Shown here one piece after another: positions 8,710 to 25,523 of a stretch of DNA of 55,165 nt (positions are counted from its first letter, which is position 1; each line of letters opens with the position of its first letter). Under the pieces are notes generated by a model, which was given only the letters and a program-made list of their open reading frames with translations, was not told the DNA's origin and ran no database searches. This DNA is from Pectobacterium peruviense (GTDB lineage Bacteria; Pseudomonadota; Gammaproteobacteria; Enterobacterales; Enterobacteriaceae): NCBI RefSeq assembly GCF_002847345.1, contig NZ_LXFV01000004.1, positions 1-55,165 of the forward strand, read 5' to 3'. The translations under genes were made by a program, and so were the position numbers.

Positions 8710-9840
8710 TTATTTCGTCGAGTTACCGCTGGCATCATACACCGGCCAATTTGACTCCAGTCCTTTGGCCTTTAATGCCCGATCGGCAAACTGACCGGCA
8801 AACCAGTCGCTGGCTGAAAACGTGTTGCGAATCAACCCGGCGGCTTTCGCCCGATCGATACTGTCCTGCAAGCTGCTGAGCAGGAACGGGTCGAGGCGTG
8901 GCGAGCTTTGGAATGGGAGATCTTCCGCTTTCAGCTCTTCCTGAAAAATAGCCTGTGGAATCTGGCTCTGCTCGGACATCAGCGCCGTATATTCCGGCAA
9001 GTGCTGCGCATCGCCGATCCACTGCGCATTGTCCACCAGCACATTCACCAGTTGCTGCGTCGTTCCCGGATAGCGATCGATAAAATCCTGCGTCGCCAGC
9101 ACCGCAGCCTGCGTGGTATTCGCCCAACCCAGCGCACGGCTAGTGGTGACAATATTGATGCCCTGCTGACGCAACGCCAGCAGGGAGGCGCCGCCCCACA
9201 CCGCATCAACGCGTCTGGCCGCCAGCGCCGCTTTGCCCGCAGTCCAGTCGAGATTGATTACCCGCACGTCGCGTTCATTCAGCCCGACGCTTTTAATGGC
9301 TCGTTCAAATGACAGCTGATCGGCTGTTCCTTTGTAGACTGCAATCCGCTTGCCGCGTAAATCCTCAATGCGTTGAATACCCGATTCCGGTGTTGCCGCC
9401 AGATAAGAATTAGAACCACGCGATCCCACCAGTACCCGCGTCTGCAGGCCACCCGCACGACCAATAATGGCAGCTAGATCGCCCAGATACACCACATCCA
9501 ACTGCTTGTTCGCCAGCGCTTCATTCACCGCCGGCCCTGCACCTTTAAAGAACGACCACTGAATTTTGATGCCCTGCGGCTCAAATTCTTTCTCCAACTG
9601 TTTTTGAATATGGGCTAATCCCAACGGCCCGCGGATAAAGGGCTTGCTGCCGGCGCTTTGGTCCGGCAAACCGATACGAATCTCCGTCGGCTTCTGTGCA
9701 TCCGACGTCACACCATCATCCGCCTGTACCGCGGAAACGAGTGCGGCACTCATCAGTAACGTCATCCCAAGAATTTTATTCATTCCCAGCCGCCAGCGAG
9801 AATAAGGGGTTATCAACGCTAAAAGGGTTGCATGCTGCAT
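8710..9840 (-). CDS. Aliphatic sulfonate/sulfate-ester ABC transporter, periplasmic binding protein
   Basis: A 376-residue SsuA/AtsR-type binding protein. The start at 9840 has TAAGGA 7 nt upstream. The secretion signal is long, with the hydrophobic core MNKILGMTLLMSAALVSAVQA about 19 residues in. The mature part has the NMT1/SsuA pattern: IRIGLPDQSAGSKPF, KIQWSFFKGAGPAVNEAL, DVVYLGDLAAIIGRAGG and VLVGSRGSNSYLAA. It is divergent from the permease, ATPase and arylsulfotransferase genes and would deliver substrate to that permease. Context points to organosulfur compounds such as sulfonates or aryl sulfates. The exact ligand is unknown. Confidence 0.85.
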   Translation of the reverse strand: MQHATLLALITPYSRWRLGMNKILGMTLLMSAALVSAVQADDGVTSDAQKPTEIRIGLPDQSAGSKPFIRGPLGLAHIQKQLEKEFEPQGIKIQWSFFKGAGPAVNEALANKQLDVVYLGDLAAIIGRAGGLQTRVLVGSRGSNSYLAATPESGIQRIEDLRGKRIAVYKGTADQLSFERAIKSVGLNERDVRVINLDWTAGKAALAARRVDAVWGGASLLALRQQGINIVTTSRALGWANTTQAAVLATQDFIDRYPGTTQQLVNVLVDNAQWIGDAQHLPEYTALMSEQSQIPQAIFQEELKAEDLPFQSSPRLDPFLLSSLQDSIDRAKAAGLIRNTFSASDWFAGQFADRALKAKGLESNWPVYDASGNSTK

Positions 9841-15392: not shown

Positions 15393-15528
15393 CCACTCAA
15401 GATACACCGCGTTTCCCTACGATTTACTCTCTCCAATTTCATCATCGACGCAAGCGGTTAAGACTGCGTCGATAGCGTAATTTATTCGCTCTGGATCACA
15501 TTTCCTTTGCATCATTTCGCCTTAATTT

Positions 15529-15546
15529 GTTATGTTATTACATATC
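15529..15546. promoter_or_regulatory. Zur-like operator before the Dpp/Nik-type ABC operon
   Basis: GTTATGTTATTACATATC differs at two positions from the perfect palindrome GTTATGTTATAACATAAC found at 25454-25471. It lies 28 bp upstream of the first ATPase gene. The form agrees with the enterobacterial Zur box pattern. If real, zinc-bound Zur would repress the transporter operon. Confidence 0.6.
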
Positions 15547-15573
15547 GATTTACATTAACTGTATACCTTAACC

Positions 15574-16452
15574 ATGATCAACTGGGACAGACATACCGAC
15601 GCCACGCTTCAGGTAGAGAACCTTAGCCTGTCCATTGGCGGTGAAACCAAAGTCAGCGATATCAGCTTTACGCTGTCCGCAGGTGAACGCGTCTGTTTAC
15701 TCGGCGCATCAGGTTCAGGTAAATCACTCACCGCCAAAGCGGTAATCGGCACTCCACCCGCAGGGTGCCAGATTAGCGGCAGCATTAAGGTAAATGGTGA
15801 AGAGGTAGGTCAGTTGAAAGCACTGGCACGCCCGCATACCAGCCGCGTCTCTGCCGTTTTTCAGGATTCTGCAACAGCCCTTAATCCCCTCATGCCGTTA
15901 GGAAAACAGCTGTCACTGGCGTTGAAATCGCCCTCTTCTGCTAAGCTTTCTGCGCTTCTGGCAGCCATGAAGCTGGACGATATTCCTAATCTGCTGCAAC
16001 GCTATCCTGCCGAATTGTCCGGCGGTCAGCGTCAACGTATTTGTATTACCCTCGCGCTGCTTGGCAAAACTCGGCTGCTGGTCGCGGATGAACCCACTAC
16101 TGCGCTTGATGTCATCACCCAGCAGCAGGTATTGCAGGTCTTACAGGAACGTAGCGCGCAGCCGGGTGCGCCCGCCCTGTTATTTATTACGCATGATATC
16201 GCCGTCGCCGCCCAACTCTGCCAGCGTGGTCTGGTGATGGAACATGGTCAGATCGTTGAATCCGGCAGTATGCAGCAACTCCTGAATGCACCACAGCATT
16301 CCTATACACGTAGTCTGGTCGCTGCCGCGCGTCGCGCTGACAATTTTTTATCAACTACGGTTTTATCCAGTAATGTTTTACCCAGTAATGTTTTACCCAG
16401 TAATGTTCTATCCAGCCATGTGTTACCCGCTGCCGGAGCACTTGCAGGATGA
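15574..16452 (+). CDS. Dpp/Nik-type ABC transporter, first ATPase (DppD/NikD-like)
   Basis: A 292-residue ATPase with Walker A GASGSGKS near residues 45-52, signature LSGGQRQRICI, Walker B LLVADEPTTALD and H-loop ITHDIAVA. This is the D-subunit type of peptide/nickel importers. The last 30 residues are a low-complexity tail made by a 15-bp tandem repeat (SNVLP units), absent from ordinary family members. The stop overlaps the next ATPase start (ATGA). It is the first gene of an apparent operon with a second ATPase, MFS protein, binding lipoprotein and fused permease, downstream of a Zur-like box. Zinc or a zinc chelate is therefore a plausible substrate, but nickel or peptides are not excluded. 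Confidence 0.85.
   Translation: MINWDRHTDATLQVENLSLSIGGETKVSDISFTLSAGERVCLLGASGSGKSLTAKAVIGTPPAGCQISGSIKVNGEEVGQLKALARPHTSRVSAVFQDSATALNPLMPLGKQLSLALKSPSSAKLSALLAAMKLDDIPNLLQRYPAELSGGQRQRICITLALLGKTRLLVADEPTTALDVITQQQVLQVLQERSAQPGAPALLFITHDIAVAAQLCQRGLVMEHGQIVESGSMQQLLNAPQHSYTRSLVAAARRADNFLSTTVLSSNVLPSNVLPSNVLSSHVLPAAGALAG
16361..16420 (+). repeat. 15-bp tandem repeat in the 3' end of the first ATPase gene
   Basis: Four in-register 15-bp units of the type TTTTACCCAGTAATG (16361, 16376, 16391, 16406) are followed by a decayed fifth unit. The second and third units are identical. The unit length is a multiple of three, so copy-number change would keep the frame and only vary the C-terminal tail. 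Confidence 0.85.
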
Positions 16453-17276
16453 ATCACCACCTGCATGCGGTGTCCTCACCGTTTTTAAGCCTTGAGCACG
16501 TCAGCCGCTATCGCCAGACGCCGCGTTTGCCGTGGCAAAAGGCCGATCCAGCCAGCGCCATTTTTCACGACCTGTCGCTGGATTTGCAACAGCACGAACG
16601 TGTTGGGCTGGTCGGTGCTTCAGGCTGTGGTAAATCCACATTGCTGAAGACCCTGCTCGCGCTTGAAGCGCCTGAGAGTGGCGCGGTGTACTGCGACGGC
16701 AACCTGATTAAGCCCGGTTCGGTACGTTCGCTGCTGTGGTATCGCCGTCGCGTTCAGTATATTCCGCAAGATCCAGCAGGCTCGCTCGCCCCACGCCAGC
16801 GCGTCGCCGATCTCCTTGCGGAGCCGCTGAAGCGACTCCGTCCCGATGAGAGCCATCGCGCTAGTGAAAAGAATTTACGTGAGGTTATGGATCAAGTTGG
16901 GCTAAGCGTTTCGCTTCTGGACAAGGTCGCTGGGCAGCTTTCCGGTGGACAGGCACAGCGCGTCGCGCTGGCGCGAGCACTGATTGTTCGCCCCGAATTT
17001 TTATTGGCAGACGAGCCCGTCAGCGGTCTGGATTTGCCGCTGCGTGAGCAGATCAAAGCCCTGCTTCAACAAGTCACTGAACAAAACAAGATGGGATTAC
17101 TGATGGTATCGCACGACATTTCCATGCTCGCTGGGCTGTGCGACAGGATGCTAGTTATGGATAGCGGACGCATCATTGAAGATCGCCCCACCGCCGAGGT
17201 GCTGGCTTCACCAGAACAGGCGCACACCGCCCGTTTATTGCAGGCCGTGCCTGGGCTGTCGGCCTCCGGCTATTAG
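16449..17276 (+). CDS. Dpp/Nik-type ABC transporter, second ATPase (DppF/NikE-like)
   Basis: A 275-residue ATPase with Walker A GASGCGKST near residue 56, YIPQDPAGSLAPRQRV as Q-loop region (F-subunit form), signature LSGGQAQRVALARAL, Walker B LLADEPVSGLD and H-loop VSHDISML. Its start overlaps the preceding ATPase stop. It would form the ATPase heterodimer of the importer. After its stop a 121-bp repeat element separates it from the MFS gene, so the operon is interrupted by about 220 bp. Transcription may read through or restart there. Confidence 0.88.
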   Translation: MNHHLHAVSSPFLSLEHVSRYRQTPRLPWQKADPASAIFHDLSLDLQQHERVGLVGASGCGKSTLLKTLLALEAPESGAVYCDGNLIKPGSVRSLLWYRRRVQYIPQDPAGSLAPRQRVADLLAEPLKRLRPDESHRASEKNLREVMDQVGLSVSLLDKVAGQLSGGQAQRVALARALIVRPEFLLADEPVSGLDLPLREQIKALLQQVTEQNKMGLLMVSHDISMLAGLCDRMLVMDSGRIIEDRPTAEVLASPEQAHTARLLQAVPGLSASGY

Positions 17277-17349
17277 CTCGCTAAAAACGCGTTTCTTACA
17301 ATAACTGACTGTTTTAATAGTTTATTAAGCCATAACGTAATTTTTCTAT

Positions 17350-17470
<121 letters not shown>

Positions 17471-17500
17471 ATATCGCGACTTTTTATAACGGATGATTGA

Positions 17501-18748
17501 ATGTCAGACCTTATCGCCAACCGCGCCCCACGGCCCTATCCCCCGTTGCTTCTGGGTAGCCAGCTTGTTTTCAACATTGGCTTTTATGCCGTCGTGCCGT
17601 TCCTGGCTATTTTCCTGCGCGACGACATGCAGCTTTCCGGCTGGGCTATCGGGCTGGTAATTGGTTTTCGCACCTTTTCTCAGCAGGGCATGTTTTTAGT
17701 CGGCGGCGCGCTGGCCGATCGCTTCGGCGCACGCGTGATTATCCTGTGCGGCTGCGTCGTGCGCATCAGCGGCTATCTCCTGCTGGCGTTGGGCGACTCG
17801 CTATGGCCGATAATCCTCGGTGCCTGCCTGACCGGTGTCGGCGGTGCCCTTTTCTCTCCTGCCATTGAAGCGCTGATGGCACAGGCCGGTACGCAAAGTG
17901 AAAAAGAGGGAAAACGCAGCCGCTCCGAGTGGTTCGCCCTGTTTGCGATTTGCGGCGAGTTGGGTGCGGTGCTCGGGCCATTGCTTGGTTCGGTGCTGGC
18001 CGGATACGGATTCCAGCGCGTAGCACTGGCGGGCGCTGGCGTCTTTGTTATCGCGCTCATCGTCCTATTTTTCAGCCTGCCGGCAACACAGCGGAATCAA
18101 GGCGAATTGCACATCGCTCCGTGGTGGGAGACCTTCCGCCAGCGGCGCTTTGTCGCCTTCATCATCGCCTACAGCGCTTACCTGTTCAGCTATAACCAGC
18201 TCTATCTGGCGCTACCGGTTGAGCTGCATCGCTCCGGCAGCAGCGAGAAAGACCTCGGCCCGCTGTTTGTACTGGCGTCTCTGCTGGTGATCGGATTACA
18301 GCTCCCGCTGGCGCGTTTTGCGCGCCGGGTTGGTGCGGCGCGCATGTTGCCATTAGGCTTCGCTCTGCTGTCCGCGTCCTTCTTTAGCGTGGCGCTGTTT
18401 GCCTCCACCACACCGCCAGAAGGCTGGCAGCGCCTGCTCCCCGCGATCTCATTAATTACTCTACTGACGTTGGGACAGATGCTGATCGTCCCCGTCGGGA
18501 TGGACCTCATCCCGCGCTTTGCCAACAACAAGAATCTGGGTGCGCACTATGGCGCGCTGGCGTCAATGGGCGGTATTGCCGTGCTGGTCGGTAACTTCAT
18601 ACTCGGCAGCCAGCTCGATCGCGCGCTGACGCCATCGCCACAGGCCGCGATTCCATGGGTGTTGCTCGCCGCCGTACCGCTGTGTAGCTCACTGGCGATG
18701 ATGGTCATCTGCCGCCCGTTTAAATCCGCTTCAACCGTGAATGAATAA
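17501..18748 (+). CDS. MFS transporter within the Zur-linked ABC operon
   Basis: A 415-residue, about 12-helix major facilitator protein with the motif-A-like loop GGALADRFGARV between helices 2 and 3, typical of drug/proton antiporters of the MdtH/YdeE kind. It sits between the ATPase genes and the binding-protein gene, and its stop lies 10 nt before the chosen start of the latter. An MFS exporter among Dpp/Nik-type importer genes recalls opine-metallophore clusters, where one MFS protein exports the metallophore. No nicotianamine-like synthase or opine dehydrogenase gene is present here, so that role is only a suggestion. Confidence 0.8.
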   Translation: MSDLIANRAPRPYPPLLLGSQLVFNIGFYAVVPFLAIFLRDDMQLSGWAIGLVIGFRTFSQQGMFLVGGALADRFGARVIILCGCVVRISGYLLLALGDSLWPIILGACLTGVGGALFSPAIEALMAQAGTQSEKEGKRSRSEWFALFAICGELGAVLGPLLGSVLAGYGFQRVALAGAGVFVIALIVLFFSLPATQRNQGELHIAPWWETFRQRRFVAFIIAYSAYLFSYNQLYLALPVELHRSGSSEKDLGPLFVLASLLVIGLQLPLARFARRVGAARMLPLGFALLSASFFSVALFASTTPPEGWQRLLPAISLITLLTLGQMLIVPVGMDLIPRFANNKNLGAHYGALASMGGIAVLVGNFILGSQLDRALTPSPQAAIPWVLLAAVPLCSSLAMMVICRPFKSASTVNE

Positions 18749-18758
18749 GGACAGACTG

Positions 18759-20270
18759 ATGAATATGCGTAATACCCTGTGGCCTATTTCCGGTCTGCTC
18801 TCAGCCACGCTGCTGCTTTCAGGCTGCTTTAATGAACCTGAAGAAAACCACACCTCGCATCATGACGGGCGAATCAAACTGGCGATGCTCCAACCGCCGC
18901 GCTCCGGTCTGACTCCGCTGAGCGATGACGCCTTTAAACTATCGCGCTGGAGTACGGCGGAAACGCTGGTGGTGCTCGATAAACTCGGCGAAGCCCAGCC
19001 TGCGCTGGCGACGAAATGGCAGCAGATCGATGATAAGTCCTGGCGTTTTGAACTGCGCCCCAATGTCCATTTTCACGATAACACCACGTTAAACGCCGCC
19101 ACGGTGGTCAATGCGCTCACGGTGGCCTCTACCGCCTCACCTAAACCTCGAATTCTGGATGGCGTGCAGTTAACGGTCAAAGCCGATGGCGATAACGCTG
19201 TCATTGTCTCCACCGCCAACGTAGATCCGCTGCTACCGCAGCGTTTATCAAGCCCACAATTGGCGATACTCTCCACCACGGCATACGGTAAGAATGGCGT
19301 CGTCAACCCGATCAATACCGGGAGCGGCCCGTTCGTTCTGCGCACTGTCACGGGCACCAGCAGCGCGGTATTGGATAGGTTCGATGGTTACTGGGGCGAG
19401 AAAGCACAGGCCAGCGGTATCGACGTCAGCTTTGTGTCCGACGGCGCGGCACGTGCCGCCGCCCTGCGCACTGGCACGGCAGACATTGTCGAAGCCATTC
19501 CTGTTTCTCAGGCACCGCTGCTGGATCAATCGCTGGTGCATGAAGTGCCTATGCCGCGTACCAACACGCTGTATCTGAATACGCACCATGGTGTGATGCA
19601 AGACCCCACAATGCGTGCTGCCGTACGCGATGCCATCAATCGTCAGCAGTTGGTGGACAACGTGTATGAGAAGCGTGCCGATGTCGCCCAAGGTCTGTTG
19701 GGACCTGCTCTACCGTGGGCGGCGACGCTGCGCCAGCCTGTGGCAAATCCGGTTAAAGCCGGTACGCCCGCTGGCGCGACCATCACGCTGGCAACCTTCA
19801 GCGATCGCGCTGAACTGCCTGAAGTCGCGGTCTATCTGGCACAACAGCTCACCGCCGCCGGATTTACGGTGAAGCAGGTGGTACGCGAATATGCGCAGAT
19901 CGAATCTGACGCGCTGGCTGGCAAGTTTGACGCCTTTATTTTGTCCCGCGCCACCGTGCTGGATTCCGGCGATCCGGTGGCTTACCTGTACAGCGATTTT
20001 GCCTGTGAAGGGTCGTTCAATATCGCCCAACTGTGCCGTCCGGAAATCGATCAGGCGCTGCAAAAAGCGTCCGCCATTCCTGCCGGAGAGGCACGTCGTC
20101 AGGCCATTATGCAAGCAGAGAATCTGATCCTCGCCAGCGATGCCGCAATCCCGATGCTGCATGAGCGAGTGATTCAAGGTGAAAGCGCGCAGGTAAAAGA
20201 CGCACTGCGTGACCCGCGTGAACGCACATTGATTAACGCCGCCACGCATATTGCTACCGGCACGAAATAA
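18759..20270 (+). CDS. Dpp/Nik-type ABC transporter substrate-binding lipoprotein
   Basis: A 503-residue SBP_bac_5 family protein. I place the start at 18759, where TAAGGA lies 7 nt upstream; an in-frame ATG at 18741 overlaps the MFS stop and would add 6 residues. A lipoprotein signal with lipobox LLLSGC puts it on the periplasmic membrane face. The mature N-terminus is His-rich (HTSHHDG), compatible with metal contact. Family motifs follow: KWQQIDDKSWRFELRPNVHFHDNT, GSGPFVL and IPMLHERVIQG. It would deliver substrate to the fused permease encoded next. The ligand is unknown; the Zur-like box upstream of the operon favours a zinc compound. Confidence 0.85.
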   Translation: MNMRNTLWPISGLLSATLLLSGCFNEPEENHTSHHDGRIKLAMLQPPRSGLTPLSDDAFKLSRWSTAETLVVLDKLGEAQPALATKWQQIDDKSWRFELRPNVHFHDNTTLNAATVVNALTVASTASPKPRILDGVQLTVKADGDNAVIVSTANVDPLLPQRLSSPQLAILSTTAYGKNGVVNPINTGSGPFVLRTVTGTSSAVLDRFDGYWGEKAQASGIDVSFVSDGAARAAALRTGTADIVEAIPVSQAPLLDQSLVHEVPMPRTNTLYLNTHHGVMQDPTMRAAVRDAINRQQLVDNVYEKRADVAQGLLGPALPWAATLRQPVANPVKAGTPAGATITLATFSDRAELPEVAVYLAQQLTAAGFTVKQVVREYAQIESDALAGKFDAFILSRATVLDSGDPVAYLYSDFACEGSFNIAQLCRPEIDQALQKASAIPAGEARRQAIMQAENLILASDAAIPMLHERVIQGESAQVKDALRDPRERTLINAATHIATGTK

Positions 20271-20276
20271 CGAGTA

Positions 20277-20307
20277 ACGCACCTGCAACCAGAAAGATGA
20301 CGAGTTT
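20277..20307. repeat. Degenerate right end of the intergenic repeat
   Basis: ACGCACCTGCAACC and ATGACGAGTTTA match the last 30 bp of the 121-bp repeat with a few changes. The fragment ends exactly at the permease start codon and replaces the usual ribosome-binding region. Confidence 0.45.
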
Positions 20308-22086
20308 ATGAGCGAATCGCTATATTGCCGCACCTGCGCGACCATCAGCCAGACACAACGTCCGCGATACGGCGTGCTGATCCCACTATTTTCGCGACTG
20401 CTGACGCTGGCGGGGATTGTGGTACTGATTGGTATGCTGCCGTGGTTATCCGGTCAGGATCCGGCTCTGGCGCTGCTACGTGCTCGCTCCGGTGAGCAGG
20501 AAGCGACCGCAGAAACGCTAAACGCGATTCGCCATTCTCTCGGGCTGGATCAAGGCCCGTTGCAGCTGCTATTGAACTGGCTGACGGGCCTGTTGCACGG
20601 CGATGCTGGCAACTCCTGGGTTTCAGGCCGCCCCGTGCTCCCAGGTATGTTGCAGGCGGCGGGTGTATCGCTCACGCTGATGGCCTCCTCGGCGCTGGTG
20701 GCCTTCACGCTGGCTGCCGTGCTGTGTGCTTCAACCTTTCGGCAGGGGTTGCGCGGTCAGGTTCACCGTTCAGGCGGCCTGTTCGCTGCCTTATTTACCG
20801 CATTGCCCGAATTTCTGCTGGCGTCGTTCCTGCTGATCGTCGGTGCCGTCTGGCTACAGTGGTTTCCCCCCTATGGCTGGCTGGGCTTGCACTATGCCGT
20901 GCTACCGTCGCTGGCTCTGGGTATCCCGGCAGGCGGTTACCTTGGCCGAATTCTCGCCGATGCACTCTCCGCCACCTTTAGTGAGAATTGGTTAACGACC
21001 TGGAGCGTCGCGGGGGTGAACCGTCGCCATATCGCGCTGGCAGTGCTGAAACGCACGTTACCCAGCGTGATGCCACTCGTCGGGCTAGTGTTGGTATCGC
21101 TCACTGGCGGGGCGATTGCCGTCGAAAAAGTGTTCGCTATTCCCGGTCTGGGACGCGCAACGCTGGGCGCTGCTGCTGCGCAGGATCTTCCCGCCTTGCA
21201 GGTCGGCGTATTGATTCTCTTACTTATCGCCTCGCTGGCAGGCATGGTGGCAAGCGGCGTACGGCTGCTGATTCTCGGACGCGCGCTGCGCAGCGGGGCA
21301 ATGCCCGTGCCGGAAGAGCGTGGTCATTCCGTCTCTCGTCATGCCATCTGGCTACCGATTATTTGTGTGCTGCTGCTGGTATTTCTGTTGCTGGCAGGCT
21401 TGCCGCGCGATCCCTATACCTCCGCGTTTTTGCGCCTGCAACCGCCGTCATTCGCGCTGCCTTTTGGCGCTGATGCAATGGGGCGCGATTTGCTGGCGCG
21501 CGTCGCGCACGGTACGTTAAATACCTGCCTGCTAGCGCTGGCGGTGTCGTTAGCCTGTCTGGCGATTGGCCTGTTAGTTGGATTATTCCCACGCCTGCTC
21601 ACCGGCCCCATCGAAGTGACTAACGCCCTGCCGCCAGTGATTGCCGGACTGCTGGTTGCCGCCGTCAACGGCCCAACGGCAACGGGTGCGGCGATTGCCG
21701 TGATTGCCGTCAGTTGGGCACCGCTCGCTGCTCACACGGCAGCGCTGGTCGCCGAAATCAACGCGCGCCCTTATATTCGGATGTTGCCGATACTCGGCGT
21801 AGGGCCGATACGGCGCAGCCTGTTCTATGTTCTGCCCGCGCTGGTTGGCCCACTCTTCCGTCACGCTATGCTGCGACTGCCCGGCATCGCACTGGCGCTG
21901 GCATCGCTCGGCTTTTTAGGTCTGGGCGCATCGCCACCGACGCCGGAATGGGGACGCGTACTGGCGGAAGGTATGCCGTATATCGAACGTGCTTTCTGGG
22001 GCGTGCTGGCCCCCGCTGCCGCACTAGGCGTGCTGTCGATATTGGCAGTAAGCGCGGCAAACCTCTCTGGTCGCCACAAGCACTAG
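20308..22086 (+). CDS. Fused Dpp/Nik-type ABC permease (DppB-DppC in one chain)
   Basis: A 592-residue membrane protein joining the two permeases of a peptide/nickel importer. The first half is DppB/NikB-like, with LGLDQGPLQLLLNWLTGLLHGDAG and the EAA-like region VAGVNRRHIALAVLKRTLPSVMP. The second half is DppC/NikC-like, with PFGADAMGRDLLARVAHG near residue 390 and GFLGLGASPPTPEWGRVL near 540. Separate proteins of about 300 residues are usual. There is no frameshift, so the fusion is real in this sequence. It is the last gene of the operon, followed by a strong hairpin. Its right-end repeat remnant overlaps the ribosome-binding region, so translation efficiency may be low. Confidence 0.9.
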   Translation: MSESLYCRTCATISQTQRPRYGVLIPLFSRLLTLAGIVVLIGMLPWLSGQDPALALLRARSGEQEATAETLNAIRHSLGLDQGPLQLLLNWLTGLLHGDAGNSWVSGRPVLPGMLQAAGVSLTLMASSALVAFTLAAVLCASTFRQGLRGQVHRSGGLFAALFTALPEFLLASFLLIVGAVWLQWFPPYGWLGLHYAVLPSLALGIPAGGYLGRILADALSATFSENWLTTWSVAGVNRRHIALAVLKRTLPSVMPLVGLVLVSLTGGAIAVEKVFAIPGLGRATLGAAAAQDLPALQVGVLILLLIASLAGMVASGVRLLILGRALRSGAMPVPEERGHSVSRHAIWLPIICVLLLVFLLLAGLPRDPYTSAFLRLQPPSFALPFGADAMGRDLLARVAHGTLNTCLLALAVSLACLAIGLLVGLFPRLLTGPIEVTNALPPVIAGLLVAAVNGPTATGAAIAVIAVSWAPLAAHTAALVAEINARPYIRMLPILGVGPIRRSLFYVLPALVGPLFRHAMLRLPGIALALASLGFLGLGASPPTPEWGRVLAEGMPYIERAFWGVLAPAAALGVLSILAVSAANLSGRHKH

Positions 22087-22104
22087 CGCCCTTCTCTTCA
22101 CGAT

Positions 22105-22140
22105 CGCAGACCCGCCAGATTTCACGATGGCGGGTCTGCG
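22105..22140. terminator. 13-bp perfect hairpin ending the ABC operon
   Basis: CGCAGACCCGCCA pairs with TGGCGGGTCTGCG around a 10-nt loop, 19 bp after the fused permease stop. The T-tract is poor, so the strength as an intrinsic terminator is uncertain. Confidence 0.65.
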
Positions 22141-22237
22141 CATCTTCAGTTACGCTGTGAGCTAACCTCTGCCGAGGTACAGAATGTGACAGAAGTTCAG
22201 AATATAAACAGTGCAGTGTGTGAATTAAGGAGAGAAT

Positions 22238-23698
22238 ATGCATAACAGCGGATCCCACGTCAGTCTTACCGTCACTCAGACTCTGGATAAACTGGAAGCG
22301 CTGTATGATGATGCCGTCTCAGCACTGCGCGACGCCATCGGGGACTTCATCAATGATGGTACGCTGCCCGACGCCACTGCGCGTGCAGCAGGGCTATTTT
22401 CCTACCCCGCTTTACGCGTTAGCTGGAGCGGCAATTCGACCGGTCATCCTCGCCATCGCGCCTATGGGCGTTTTACCCATCCCGGCAGTTATTCCACCAC
22501 CGTCACCCGCCCCGCATTCCTGCGTGCTTATCTGGCGGAACAGCTGGCGCTGCTGGAGGGGGATTATGACGTCATCATTGAAGCCAGCCCGTCACAGCAG
22601 GAAATTCCGTTCCCCTACGTGCTCGACGGTTCCGATCTGATTCTTGACCGCTCGATGAGCGCTGGCATCGCCAAACACTTCCCAACCACAGAGCTGTCAC
22701 AGATTGGGGACGAGACGGCGGATGGTCTGTTTCATGCCACCACCACGTCGCCACTGTCGCATTTCGACGCGCTGCGCACTGATTTCTCGCTGGCACGGCT
22801 TCGCCACTATACCGGTACGCCGGTGGAACATATTCAGCCGTTCATTCTCTTCACCAACTACACCCGCTATGTCGACGAGTTTGTACGCTGGGCCTGTGCA
22901 CAGATTGCCGATCCTGATAGCCCCTATGAGGCGCTGTCGTGCGCTGGCGGTATCTATATCACCGCCGACACGCCGAATCCCGAGCAGACGGTTTCCGATC
23001 TGGCCTGGAAGAACCACCAGATGCCTGCCTATCATCTGATTCCTCGTCAGGGTAAAGGGATTACGATGGTTAATATCGGCGTCGGGCCCTCCAACGCCAA
23101 AACTATCTGCGATCATCTCGCCGTCATGCGCCCGCATGCGTGGTTGATGATCGGCCACTGCGGCGGCCTGCGCGAAAGTCAGTCCATCGGTGATTACGTG
23201 CTGGCACACGCTTATCTGCGTGACGACCACGTTCTGGATGCCGTTCTGCCGCCGGATATCCCGATTCCGAGTATCGCAGAAGTGCAACGCGCGCTGTATG
23301 ACGCCACCAAGATGGTTAGCGGGATGCCGGGGGAAGAAGTTAAGCAGCGCCTGCGTACTGGCACCGTTGTCACTACCGATGACCGCAACTGGGAATTGCG
23401 CTACGCAGCCTCCGCTCTACGGTTTAACCTCAGTCGCGCCGTCGCAGTGGATATGGAAAGCGCGACGATTGCCGCACAGGGTTATCGCTTCCGTGTGCCT
23501 TACGGTACGCTGCTGTGCGTCTCGGATAAGCCGCTGCACGGTGAAATTAAACTGCCGGGACAGGCGAACCGTTTCTATGAAGGGGCGATTTCGGAGCATT
23601 TGCAGATTGGCATCTGCGCCATCGATCTGCTGCGGGCGGAAAGCGACAAGCTGCATTCGCGCAAGCTACGCACCTTTAACGAACCCCCGTTCCGCTAA
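22238..23698 (+). CDS. amn: AMP nucleosidase
   Basis: A 486-residue cytoplasmic enzyme (E. coli Amn has 484) that splits AMP into adenine and ribose 5-phosphate. An N-terminal Amn-specific domain (near SHVSLTVTQTLDKLEALYDD) is followed by a nucleoside-phosphorylase-like domain with MVNIGVGPSNAKTICDHLAV, MIGHCGGLRESQSIGDYVL and the catalytic region VDMESATIAAQGYRFRVP. AAGGAG lies 5 nt before the ATG. It has hairpins on both sides and appears monocistronic, a core gene placed between Zur-linked genes. Confidence 0.95.
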   Translation: MHNSGSHVSLTVTQTLDKLEALYDDAVSALRDAIGDFINDGTLPDATARAAGLFSYPALRVSWSGNSTGHPRHRAYGRFTHPGSYSTTVTRPAFLRAYLAEQLALLEGDYDVIIEASPSQQEIPFPYVLDGSDLILDRSMSAGIAKHFPTTELSQIGDETADGLFHATTTSPLSHFDALRTDFSLARLRHYTGTPVEHIQPFILFTNYTRYVDEFVRWACAQIADPDSPYEALSCAGGIYITADTPNPEQTVSDLAWKNHQMPAYHLIPRQGKGITMVNIGVGPSNAKTICDHLAVMRPHAWLMIGHCGGLRESQSIGDYVLAHAYLRDDHVLDAVLPPDIPIPSIAEVQRALYDATKMVSGMPGEEVKQRLRTGTVVTTDDRNWELRYAASALRFNLSRAVAVDMESATIAAQGYRFRVPYGTLLCVSDKPLHGEIKLPGQANRFYEGAISEHLQIGICAIDLLRAESDKLHSRKLRTFNEPPFR

Positions 23699-23719
23699 TC
23701 GAAGGATATTGCTCAGACA

Positions 23720-23743
23720 GCCGACCTCATTCGTGCGGTCGGC
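23720..23743. terminator. Hairpin after amn
   Basis: GCCGACC and GGTCGGC form a 7-bp stem with a 10-nt loop about 20 bp after the amn stop; there is no clear T-tract. Confidence 0.5.
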
Positions 23744-23761
23744 CGCTCTGGATTGATCAAA

Positions 23762-23780
23762 TTTGTTATGTTATAACAAA
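23762..23780. promoter_or_regulatory. Zur-like operator before the small secreted protein gene
   Basis: TTTGTTATGTTATAACAAA is a perfect 8-3-8 inverted repeat 25 bp before the ATG of the 79-residue protein. Its core GTTATGTTATAACA is identical to that of the palindrome before the AztD-like gene. Confidence 0.65.
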
Positions 23781-23805
23781 CTAAATTTCATACTGGATAA
23801 ACCCG

Positions 23806-24045
23806 ATGAGAAAAGGTCTGTCAGTTCTGTTCCTTTCCCTGGTGGCGGCACAAGCTTCGGCGTTTCAGGCGAAAATAGCCCCATCCGATGATGCTGGGTC
23901 ACGTAATATCGATGAGGCCAAACGCACTTTTTCTGGCTTTACGCCGATGGGATTGGAAACGATCCACCCCGGCCAGTGTGATGCAACATCAGTTAATGGC
24001 TGCGGTTGCCCATTCTGCACTCAGCTACGGCTTATTGGTCGCTAA
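23806..24045 (+). CDS. Small secreted Cys-containing protein, putative zinc-responsive
   Basis: A 79-residue protein with a clear signal peptide (MRKGLSVLFLSLVAAQASA, cleavage near residue 19) and a mature part of about 60 residues. Four cysteines cluster near the C-terminus: C58, then C66-G-C68-P-F-C71. No family was recognised. The Zur-like palindrome 25 bp upstream and the convergent AztD-like gene with its own Zur-like box suggest a periplasmic role in zinc handling, for example metal binding or transfer. The cysteines could equally form disulfides. It is predicted from signal peptide, operator and codon pattern; no function is established. Confidence 0.6.
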   Translation: MRKGLSVLFLSLVAAQASAFQAKIAPSDDAGSRNIDEAKRTFSGFTPMGLETIHPGQCDATSVNGCGCPFCTQLRLIGR

Positions 24046-24102
24046 TTGGTATAGAGCATGTGAGCATCCCTGCCCGCATACCGCTCCTATCCAGAAGCAG
24101 GT

Positions 24103-25422
24103 TTAGCGCTTACCCGCCAGCTCGGTAGGCGCGCCGTCAATTTTAATATCCAGCCCCTGCTTTGCGCTGCTCAGATAGAATTCACGAATACGCTGATTCA
24201 CCGGATCGCTGACGTACACGCTACCGCCGACAATGGCAATCGACGGCGTTGGCGTTTTCGCGCCGTAAGCGCAGTCAAACGCCTCAACTGCATCAAAGCT
24301 GGCAACTTGCTTCCAGTTCGGTGCAACGTCATATAAGCGCAGCTTGCCATCTGGCGTCAGGTTGGCGACCCGTTTACCATCGGCAGAGACCTCAAATTTG
24401 CACACTGCCTGACCATCCGGGATGGAAAATGCATCCTGCGCTGTGAGCTTTTTGGCCTGAGGATCGATGCGAATGAGCGCGTTAAATGGCTGCCCACCCA
24501 ACCCACCATAATTACCAATCACGTAGGTGCCTTGCAGGCCGGATTTCAGCGTGCTGGTGCGGCGATCGTCAGGGTAAGCCAGCTTGTGCGATACCCATTT
24601 CCCGCTCTGTTTTTTTACGATCAACACACCGCCGTCGCTTTTCGCGTCACCGTCCGCCAATTTCGCGTTACAGCCAAAAATGTGGACGTGATTCAGTTCG
24701 CTGTGACCGTGAAACTCTTTACAAGAGCGCTGTGGATCTTGTTCCTGATTAAAGTCCGCTATGGCTTTCCAGTTTTTGTCTTGCTGATAAACCACGAAGC
24801 CGTTAGGTCGCGATGTCACCGTTTTATCATCGCCTTTGGCATAGGCCGCTTTGGGTACGGAAATCAGCCACTGATTATTCCCCAATGGGGCGGTGATGCC
24901 GTGCTGCGGTGCCGAGCTTTTGCGCTTCTCAACAGTAGGATTTGCGCTATCCAGTTCCGACAAACGGATCATGACCGATTCAGGCTGGCTGGGGCCGTCC
25001 CACGGACGTATGCCATCGTATGACCAGGCCACCCAACCGTTCTCCGAGGTAATATGCGAAGGTTTGTCTCCCGTGACTCGCAGCGGTAGAAGACGCGGCT
25101 CGCCTTTATGCACGTCCAAATGATCGTCGTGCGACTCATAGGTCAGACCGGTATCAAGAAAAGCAATCGTACCCGCGTCGTCGTAAAGGTTGACGATCGT
25201 GAAGCGCCCGTCCTCCGTTGGCACCAGCGCCGCATTCGCCCGACCCACGTCAAAGGTGTGTGTCACCTTGAAGGTGTCCAGATCCAACACGCTGAGCGTC
25301 GGTTTCTGGTGATCGGAAAAGATTAATCGCCCGCGCAATACTTCATGATCGTGCGCCTGAACGCTCGTATTTCCCGCCCCTATCAACAGCGCCAGAGTCG
25401 CTGCGATTGTCGTTTTCTGCAT
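24103..25422 (-). CDS. AztD-like periplasmic zinc metallochaperone (beta-propeller)
   Basis: A 439-residue exported protein with signal peptide (MQKTTIAATLALLIGAGNTS, ending VQA) and a mature N-terminus starting HDHE, a possible metal site. The rest is repetitive beta-propeller-like sequence: FSDHQKPTLSVLDLDTFKV, RFTIVNLYDDAGTIAFLDTG, a FHGHSELNHVHIFGC histidine cluster and a C-terminal SVYVSDPVNQRIREF. This fits AztD, which passes zinc to the AztC binding protein. The start at 25422 has GGAGAG nearby; an ATG at 25434 adds 4 residues. A perfect 18-bp Zur-like palindrome lies upstream. No AztABC genes are adjacent, so its partner is unknown. The family call is from memory of the fold pattern. 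Confidence 0.7.
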   Translation of the reverse strand: MQKTTIAATLALLIGAGNTSVQAHDHEVLRGRLIFSDHQKPTLSVLDLDTFKVTHTFDVGRANAALVPTEDGRFTIVNLYDDAGTIAFLDTGLTYESHDDHLDVHKGEPRLLPLRVTGDKPSHITSENGWVAWSYDGIRPWDGPSQPESVMIRLSELDSANPTVEKRKSSAPQHGITAPLGNNQWLISVPKAAYAKGDDKTVTSRPNGFVVYQQDKNWKAIADFNQEQDPQRSCKEFHGHSELNHVHIFGCNAKLADGDAKSDGGVLIVKKQSGKWVSHKLAYPDDRRTSTLKSGLQGTYVIGNYGGLGGQPFNALIRIDPQAKKLTAQDAFSIPDGQAVCKFEVSADGKRVANLTPDGKLRLYDVAPNWKQVASFDAVEAFDCAYGAKTPTPSIAIVGGSVYVSDPVNQRIREFYLSSAKQGLDIKIDGAPTELAGKR

Positions 25423-25453
25423 CTTTCTCTCCATGATGTCATTGTGATTTTAA

Positions 25454-25471
25454 GTTATGTTATAACATAAC
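25454..25471. promoter_or_regulatory. Zur-like operator before the AztD-like gene
   Basis: GTTATGTTATAACATAAC is a perfect 18-bp palindrome 31 bp upstream of the minus-strand start at 25422. It agrees with the enterobacterial Zur pattern (ATGTTATA core with AT-rich arms). Confidence 0.75.
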
Positions 25472-25523
25472 AATTAAAAATACCAAAATCAGACAGGGAG
25501 AGGCATAGCAAAAGCGCAATAGA

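Follow-up and report, generated by a model that had tools for sequence, protein, structure and literature searches.

Zur-box-like sites before a NikA-type importer operon, a small cysteine-protein gene and an AztD-family gene in Pectobacterium peruviense

Genes and Zur-box-like sites of the window

The stretch of DNA analysed here (the window; 55,165 nucleotides, contig NZ_LXFV01000004.1) is contig C4 of the 4.78-Mb genome of Pectobacterium peruviense. It contains an operon for an ATP-binding cassette (ABC) importer with a gene of the major facilitator superfamily (MFS), a gene for a small cysteine (Cys) protein and a gene for an AztD-family zinc metallochaperone, and each of the three units is preceded by a palindrome that resembles a Zur box. 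This gene content agrees with the original prediction, which had described the region as a local zinc regulon marked by three Zur-like palindromes. The features are as follows.

15526..15544, plus strand: Zur-box-like site of the ABC operon, 18.4 bits with a znuA-derived matrix
15574..16452, plus strand: ABC ATPase 1, 292 aa, nearest NikD/CntD by profile, below the cut-offs
16449..17276, plus strand: ABC ATPase 2, 275 aa, nearest NikE by profile, below the cut-offs
17501..18748, plus strand: MFS transporter, 415 aa, MdtH-like (136.5 bits against a cut-off of 469)
18741..20270, plus strand: NikA-type substrate-binding protein (SBP), 509 aa, SBP_bac_5 195 bits, Opp5A_nikA 184.7 bits against a cut-off of 600
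20308..22086, plus strand: fused two-domain permease, 592 aa, two BPD_transp_1 stretches, with NikB/Opp1B and NikC/Opp2C profiles on its halves
23762..23780, plus strand: Zur-box-like site of the small Cys gene, 19.0 bits, 8-3-8 palindrome
23806..24045, plus strand: small protein, 79 aa, signal-like start, C-terminal C-x7-C-x-C-P-F-C-x3-R
24103..25434, minus strand: AztD-family zinc metallochaperone, 443 aa, NCBIfam AztD 120.4 bits, aligned to the solved structures 6cmk and 6ck1
25451..25474, minus strand: Zur-box-like site of aztD, two overlapping registers of 23.4 bits (25456) and 17.2 bits (25451)

The three palindromes are present as first written, at 25454, 15529 and 23762. The sequence at 25454-25471 is a perfect 18-bp palindrome, 15529-15546 matches it at 16 of 18 positions, and an exact 8-3-8 inverted repeat, TTTGTTAT-GTT-ATAACAAA, occupies 23762-23780. 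A search of the window for the 18-mer with up to 3 mismatches returned these three sites and no others, and 100 dinucleotide shuffles returned none. For scoring, a 19-bp Zur matrix was derived from the best Zur-like site around the znuA start in 29 other genomes of the family, the own genome being excluded. The training sites lean towards the published consensus because each was picked as the best match to it within about 330 bp around the znuA start; their leave-one-out scores range from 12.7 to 31.9 with a median of 28.3, and the lowest (L167, 12.7) may be a wrong pick. When all 55,147 window positions were ranked by this matrix, the top four places fell to the three sites (23.4, 19.0, 18.4 and 17.2 bits). 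Next come 15531 with 7.3 bits, still overlapping the 15526 site, and 31361 with 7.1 bits, the highest score outside the three sites. Low scores with an enterobacterial Zur matrix were to be expected of sites wrongly assigned; the three sites reach 18.4-23.4 bits and head the window, and within the window the motif is indeed confined to them. The distance from the box centre to the start codon is 39 bp for the ABC operon, 35 bp for the Cys gene and 31 bp for aztD.

The gammaproteobacterial Zur box has been reported as GAAATGTTATAnTATAACATTTC with a 19-bp core AATGTTATAnTATAACATT, and that of the Rhodobacter group as GATATGTTATAACATATC (PMC2706843). The window 18-mer resembles GATATGTTATAACATATC, and each of the three sites also reads as the 17-bp core of GAAATGTTATAnTATAACATTTC with 2-3 mismatches, the form in which it is scored here. 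The symmetry axis of the 18-mer differs from that of the gammaproteobacterial 7-1-7 box, and the site at 25454 corresponds to that box in two overlapping registers.

Conservation of the boxes and the genome-wide regulon

The nearest relatives of the SBP are found in P. betavasculorum and P. zantedeschiae (99% identity). From 250 relatives of the SBP, 79 loci were kept, of which 63 are close (L011-L073, 55-99% SBP identity) and 16 distant ones (L074-L089, at most 31% identity) were set aside. In 55 of the 63 close loci, the first ATPase gene has a box of at least 13 bits within a stretch that runs from -200 to +60 relative to its start. Elsewhere in the same loci (1.31 Mb), 18 further sites reach this strength, and several of these stand before other zinc genes. 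Among the eight loci without a box, a weaker site is kept at the expected position in L054 (12.7 bits) and in the Rhizobium locus L040 (10.1 bits). Two Arthrobacter loci lack a site altogether, and in four Lentzea/Saccharothrix loci no match to the first ATPase lies near the SBP gene. The boxed relatives include Vibrio, Aliivibrio and Marinomonas. The operon family itself is rare and patchy: at E 1e-60, a sample of 369 genomes of the class contains it in three, one of which is the own genome.

Chance occurrence of AT-rich palindromes would be in keeping with the AT-rich core and with the weak matches that are common in the genome, 22 as compared to 10 for a reversed control, because of which only own-genome sites of at least 18 bits were counted as evidence. 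The highest score in 60 simulated first-order Markov windows was 17.1 bits and none reached 18.4 bits, and chance is contradicted by the conservation in 55 of 63 loci; we regard it as a negligible explanation.

Elsewhere in the genome, boxes are located before znuA/znuCB (C1, 26.6 bits), before rpmE2 for the type B L31 protein (C16, 18.4 bits), before an AztABC-like operon (C32, 28.9 bits) and before a FecBCD-like operon (C13, 21.4 bits) with ATPase, SBP and permease genes of the siderophore/B12 type, and another overlaps the start of a DUF1007 (ZevA-like) gene at C11:237429 (L105, 21.7 bits). The three proteins of the C32 operon best match AztA, AztB and AztC, all below the cut-offs. The C11 DUF1007 gene is followed by a membrane-type gene, and we take the two to be a ZevAB pair. 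The genome-wide list holds only sites within 3 mismatches of two patterns and the regulon list is thus a lower bound. With at least five further boxed units, the window appears as one corner of a genome-wide Zur regulon, and the originally predicted local character of the regulon does not hold. The FecB-, ZevB-, IucA/C- and lexA-like names used here, together with some of the COG0523, DksA2 and AztD names given to neighbouring genes, come from reading the translations and not from a search. Two FUR-family proteins are encoded in the genome, and the weaker one (58 bits) adjoins a lexA-like gene; from this neighbour and the E. coli gene order, the weaker one is presumably Zur.

Binding of the palindromes by another regulator, either Fur or the AraC-type protein whose gene adjoins aztD, would make zinc irrelevant, and Zur and Fur signals are indeed alike in sequence (PMC2706843). 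However, a matrix trained on znuA sites sets the three sites more than 11 bits above everything else in the window, similar boxes stand before rpmE2 and znuA, and the box is kept in loci without a matched AraC homologue (for example L021-L024), which makes such a regulator very unlikely. Sequence and conservation give good support to control of the three units by Zur, in which we have high confidence.

Several of the other own-genome sites were opened as well. The weaker ones (L103, L104, L106-L109 and L209-L213; best 15.6 bits) have no adjoining recognisable zinc gene, and the sites at C1:234597 and C14:26166 were judged to be chance from their position. An EcaC-like gene at C1:308240 was rejected as a regulon member, its 3-mismatch site scoring only 9.9 bits. 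This gene (L092:2332-2790) encodes a protein of the CaMKII_AD/DUF4440 type with a signal-like start, and the site is located about 85 bp upstream.

Other zinc-type genes with boxes of their own are found near the importer operon in several lineages. Brenneria roseae carries a boxed DksA2-like gene whose zinc-finger region has a single Cys, two Vibrio loci carry boxed DUF1007 (ZevA-like) genes, and a boxed gene best matching Zur (61.5 bits against a cut-off of 167) is located about 6.5 kb from the operon in Vibrio maritimus. In the Pseudoroseomonas locus, a FecB-like gene has a 21.4-bit box some 500 bp upstream, and the divergent FecB-like operon near the Enterobacter importer has no box of at least 13 bits; the FecB-like proteins of these two loci are just 25-27% identical to the one encoded on C13.

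The distant loci, scored apart, contain a 19-mer of at least 13 bits in 5 of 16 cases (L079 14.2, L082 18.9, L085 13.9, L086 21.4 and L089 21.2 bits). Only the box of L085 lies directly before the SBP gene, that of L082 being about 200 bp after the SBP gene and the others further away. The L085 site (9801-9819; Pseudochelatococcus, 28% SBP identity) is about 40-50 bp before the SBP gene. The gammaproteobacterial matrix found no sites in the actinobacterial relatives. A GATTGTCATGAG block stands at a similar distance before the SBP gene in all four Lentzea/Saccharothrix loci (L047, L048, L049 and L068); it resembles an actinobacterial Zur box and is possibly their own Zur box, which we take as a lead only.

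The AztD-family chaperone and the small Cys protein

AztD is the sole NCBIfam family matched by the 443-aa protein, and the match falls short of the cut-off (120.4 against 400 bits; model kind 'exception'), so that the protein is labelled AztD-family and not AztD equivalog. Among the published zinc-ligand and disulfide residues (PMC6689063), 8 of 9 are kept. All three site 1 ligands (H124, H167 and H218 in PdAztD numbering) are aligned as His, while three of the four site 2 ligands (H99, H102, D104 and H408) are kept, the C-terminal His being absent, and the turn residue Gly100 is replaced by Asp. In the AztD family, conservation has been given as 68.1% for the C-terminal His and 93.4% for Gly100 (PMC6689063). 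Both cysteines of the disulfide Cys214-Cys231 are aligned against 6cmk and only the first against 6ck1, where the alignment has a gap; the spacing is 17 residues in all three proteins. From these residues, an AztD function can be predicted for the chaperone with good confidence.

An AztD gene is present in 7 of 25 genomes of the genus, and all seven loci are boxed (21.4-25.9 bits). AztC is found in all 25, one match being partial, and since it occurs in every genome the co-occurrence of AztD and AztC is complete but uninformative. In the own genome aztD (C4) is not beside the aztABC-like operon (C32). The known systems AztABCD (P. denitrificans, Citrobacter koseri) and ZniCBA (Klebsiella, Rhizobium), which are already in print (PMC6689063, PMC10797113, PMC12183173), resemble the present case in that most AztD zinc ligands are kept and a Zur-boxed AztABC-like operon is present in the genome, and they differ from it in the separation of aztD from aztABC, the missing C-terminal His ligand and the change of Gly100 to Asp. 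Most likely, the chaperone serves and loads the AztC protein of the AztABC-like importer encoded on the other contig, and the Dpp/Nik-type ABC operon looks independent of it. The part of the original prediction that joined the three units into one set is not supported.

The 79-aa Cys protein matches no Pfam family in the window (its homologues reach E 0.17 or weaker). In NCBIfam its family gives single-member matches only, the best being CsgA at 9e-4 and taken as chance, and its best match in the Protein Data Bank is a TRIM32 fragment at chance level (E 0.43). Homologues are present in 21 of 198 sampled genomes of the family, the own one included. Within the genus, 16 of 25 genomes have one, which is partial in two cases. 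The invariant residues include G65, C66, C68, C71 and R75, and C58 is nearly so, in 20 aligned sequences from 22 family places.

A box of at least 13 bits is located upstream of the Cys gene at 13 of 21 family places outside the own genome (L171-L191) and at 15 of 16 places in the genus; the box at L176, 202 bp from the Cys gene, probably belongs to a divergent FecBCD-like operon. Within about 1.5 kb at the 21 places, reading of the neighbours revealed COG0523 genes in four (L174 checked), DksA2-like genes in two (L175 checked), AztD genes in two and a FecBCD-like operon in one, the last 71% identical to the C13 SBP over 130 residues; at least one of these neighbours is present at 7 of the 21. 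The Cys gene is convergent with aztD both in the window and on the Klebsiella plasmid pBio30 (L207). There it is annotated as 'hypothetical protein', the convergent genes aztD-aztC-aztB-aztA come next, and the boxes score 23.1 and 21.2 bits. On this conjugative plasmid (NZ_CP093857.1 120491-130742), genes for an M14 carboxypeptidase and a dihydroorotase, hemB, the Cys gene and aztDCBA stand side by side, and the group looks like a zinc-starvation island. The motif and the gene company suggest that the Cys protein most likely binds zinc or passes it on in the periplasm. A small protein family that is unnamed in the searched model libraries would thereby gain a Zur-linked context.

Importer cargo and proposed mechanism

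All components of the importer fall below the equivalog cut-offs of the Nik system (NikA 88.8/393, NikB 133.7/447, NikC 95.8/358.5, NikD 191.8/318.7 and NikE 192/332.6 bits) and of the Cnt system (CntA 41/800, CntD 182/380, CntF 180/385 and CntC 43/440 bits). The nearest solved chain to the SBP is 3t66. A lipobox-like LSGC at residues 26-29, in which L26, G28 and C29 are nearly invariant among 27 aligned sequences (that of the window included), suggests that the SBP is probably a lipoprotein.

Comparison with known systems indicates likeness without identity. NikABCDE shares the SBP, permease and ATPase superfamilies and is among the best profile names, but the scores are far below the NikA-E cut-offs and the box here is of Zur type. 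The staphylopine system CntABCDF-CntE is likewise a zinc-related Opp-type importer plus an MFS gene, whereas the CntA profile gives only 41 bits here (cut-off 800), the genome has no nicotianamine-synthase match and the permeases are fused. In Paracoccus denitrificans, which also has aztABCD, a Ni/dipeptide ABC operon with a COG0523 gene (pden1338-1344) is induced 8.6- to 16-fold by zinc depletion (PMC5387054). That operon encodes a cluster-C ABC importer as well, and consists of the COG0523 gene, two hypothetical genes, an SBP, two separate permeases and one ATPase, whereas the operon here has a fused permease, two ATPases and an MFS gene and no COG0523 gene. Neither the fused-permease operon nor the small Cys protein has a paper among the open-literature matches listed, subscription papers and RegPrecise being outside that search.

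We propose that three neighbouring, separate transcription units would be repressed by zinc-loaded Zur at their boxes and switched on when zinc is low. The first would encode an ABC importer of cluster C (NikA/Opp type), whose SBP is probably anchored to lipid and whose permease is fused; it would most likely take up a small metal chelate, with zinc as the likeliest metal, and a possible task of its MFS protein is to send back the emptied ligand or a by-product. The second would be a small exported four-Cys protein, from an undescribed family that occurs among zinc-starvation genes, that binds or passes on zinc in the periplasm. The third would be an AztD-type zinc chaperone of the periplasm that loads the AztC protein of the AztABC-like importer, whose Zur-boxed operon lies on another contig. 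What the sequence supports are the gene families and the boxes with their conservation, and from these we infer Zur binding and the zinc response in the organism. The explanation as a whole appears probable to us. For its parts, it is somewhat probable that the importer carries a metal chelate, while zinc as that metal is a tentative assignment, a little short of an even chance. The regulation proposed is ordinary repression by Zur, and novelty lies in the fused-permease importer, which is conserved, and in the Cys family, which has no name yet.

Several observations weigh against this explanation. The best profile and structure names of the SBP are those of nickel, dipeptide and opine proteins, and the best link of the importer to zinc is its regulation and company and not its chemistry. 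No TonB receptor gene was found beside the own-genome sites opened, and PF03059 (nicotianamine synthase) has no match in the genome, having matched one of 14 control genomes, Methanosarcina. The MFS gene clusters with the importer in 23 of the 63 close loci only (L046 has a further 46% match). The Cys gene has no box of at least 13 bits at 8 of the 21 family places (7.9-11.0 bits at four and at most 6.4 bits at four), nor is there a box at the other Klebsiella plasmid locus, L208 (2 of 72 plasmid records were opened). For a zur mutant of Pectobacterium odoriferum, section 2.5 and further passages of the published study name only znuABC among the metal-transport targets (PMC10298282). Its differentially expressed genes are enriched in the KEGG pathways 'ABC transporters' and 'quorum sensing'. 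Opp-type ABC genes belong to the 'quorum sensing' map, which is compatible with the proposed explanation but is no proof of it.

The cargo may also be other than zinc, a Zur-controlled operon serving for cobalt or nickel chelates or for a non-metal nutrient that lowers the zinc demand, an alternative that concerns only the cargo and otherwise overlaps with the proposed explanation. The SBP, permease and ATPase profiles, which are nearest to nickel or Opp systems, point in this direction, and the Zur-controlled PA2911-PA2914 of P. aeruginosa has been linked to a complex of pyochelin and cobalt by which zinc deficiency is counteracted (PMC11481552). The boxed C13 importer is of the siderophore/B12 type like PA2911-PA2914, but no TonB receptor gene was seen in the 15 kb around it. 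The proximity of the operon to dedicated zinc genes in several lineages speaks against a non-zinc cargo, though the cargo is not fixed by it, and we consider such a cargo unlikely, if still a serious alternative. As a special case of zinc-chelate import, the importer could take up nicotianamine-zinc of plant origin in the course of soft rot. Plants are rotted by the host genus, and without a nicotianamine-synthase match in the genome the ligand would have to be foreign; however, boxes at the same place in Vibrio, Aliivibrio and Marinomonas imply that the ligand should not be plant-specific, and this case is quite improbable.

Opp-type importers have already been described together with MFS, EamA or MatE exporters in opine-zincophore clusters (PMC7438024). 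In Vibrionales a MatE gene (checked in L050) clusters with the importer in 20 of 22 loci (L050-L073); this efflux gene is mostly directly upstream of the importer, and many Enterobacterales loci have the MFS gene inside the operon. A Zur box belonging to the Vibrio MatE gene was considered and rejected, as a site of at least 13 bits stands upstream in only 2 of 20 loci (L061 and L065) and is more likely that of a divergent ZevA-like gene, so that the pairing of importer and exporter in Vibrio rests on neighbourhood alone.

In a bolder form, the Cys protein would found a Zur-controlled family of exported zinc-handling miniproteins with a motif of the GC-x-C-[PA]-F-C-x2-[LM]-R type, working with AztD/AztC, and the fused-permease NikA-type operon would be a widespread, horizontally moved zinc-chelate importer; we consider this doubtful. 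The boldest form, in which a processed Cys peptide is itself the zinc carrier imported by the Opp-type importer, finds little support because most importer loci are without a Cys gene nearby. Under the proposed explanation, an importer of the 'nickel/peptide' type, whose range extends from Pectobacterium to Vibrio and includes some actinobacteria, would become a testable zinc-starvation transporter. How bacteria gain access to zinc held by other molecules is a question for plant and animal infection.

A metallophore of the opine (staphylopine) type was rejected, as the genome has no nicotianamine-synthase match. By reading, C10:70000-88000 (L215) holds a siderophore-like cluster with an IucA/C-like end, a TonB receptor, a LysA-like decarboxylase and a cysteine-synthase-like gene, together with an MFS gene (Pfam), a FecB-like SBP gene and the sole gene of the genome for an octopine-dehydrogenase domain (Pfam). 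The cluster contains no Zur-like site (best 1.3 bits) and no match to a Fur box within 5 mismatches. The octopine-dehydrogenase-domain gene was not linked to the importer because it lies in this siderophore-looking cluster without a Zur-like site.

Two further features separate the ABC operon from the Cys gene.

22102..22144, plus strand: strong hairpin after the permease gene, fold -32.1 kcal/mol, z -5.15
22238..23698, plus strand: amn, AMP nucleosidase

The hairpin, which is absent from a terminator scan that demands a T run, may end the ABC operon 3' of the permease gene and before amn, and because of it amn is probably a separate gene. With no box of its own, amn is not counted in the system; its assignment as AMP nucleosidase is clear of the NCBIfam cut-off (803.5 against 307 bits).

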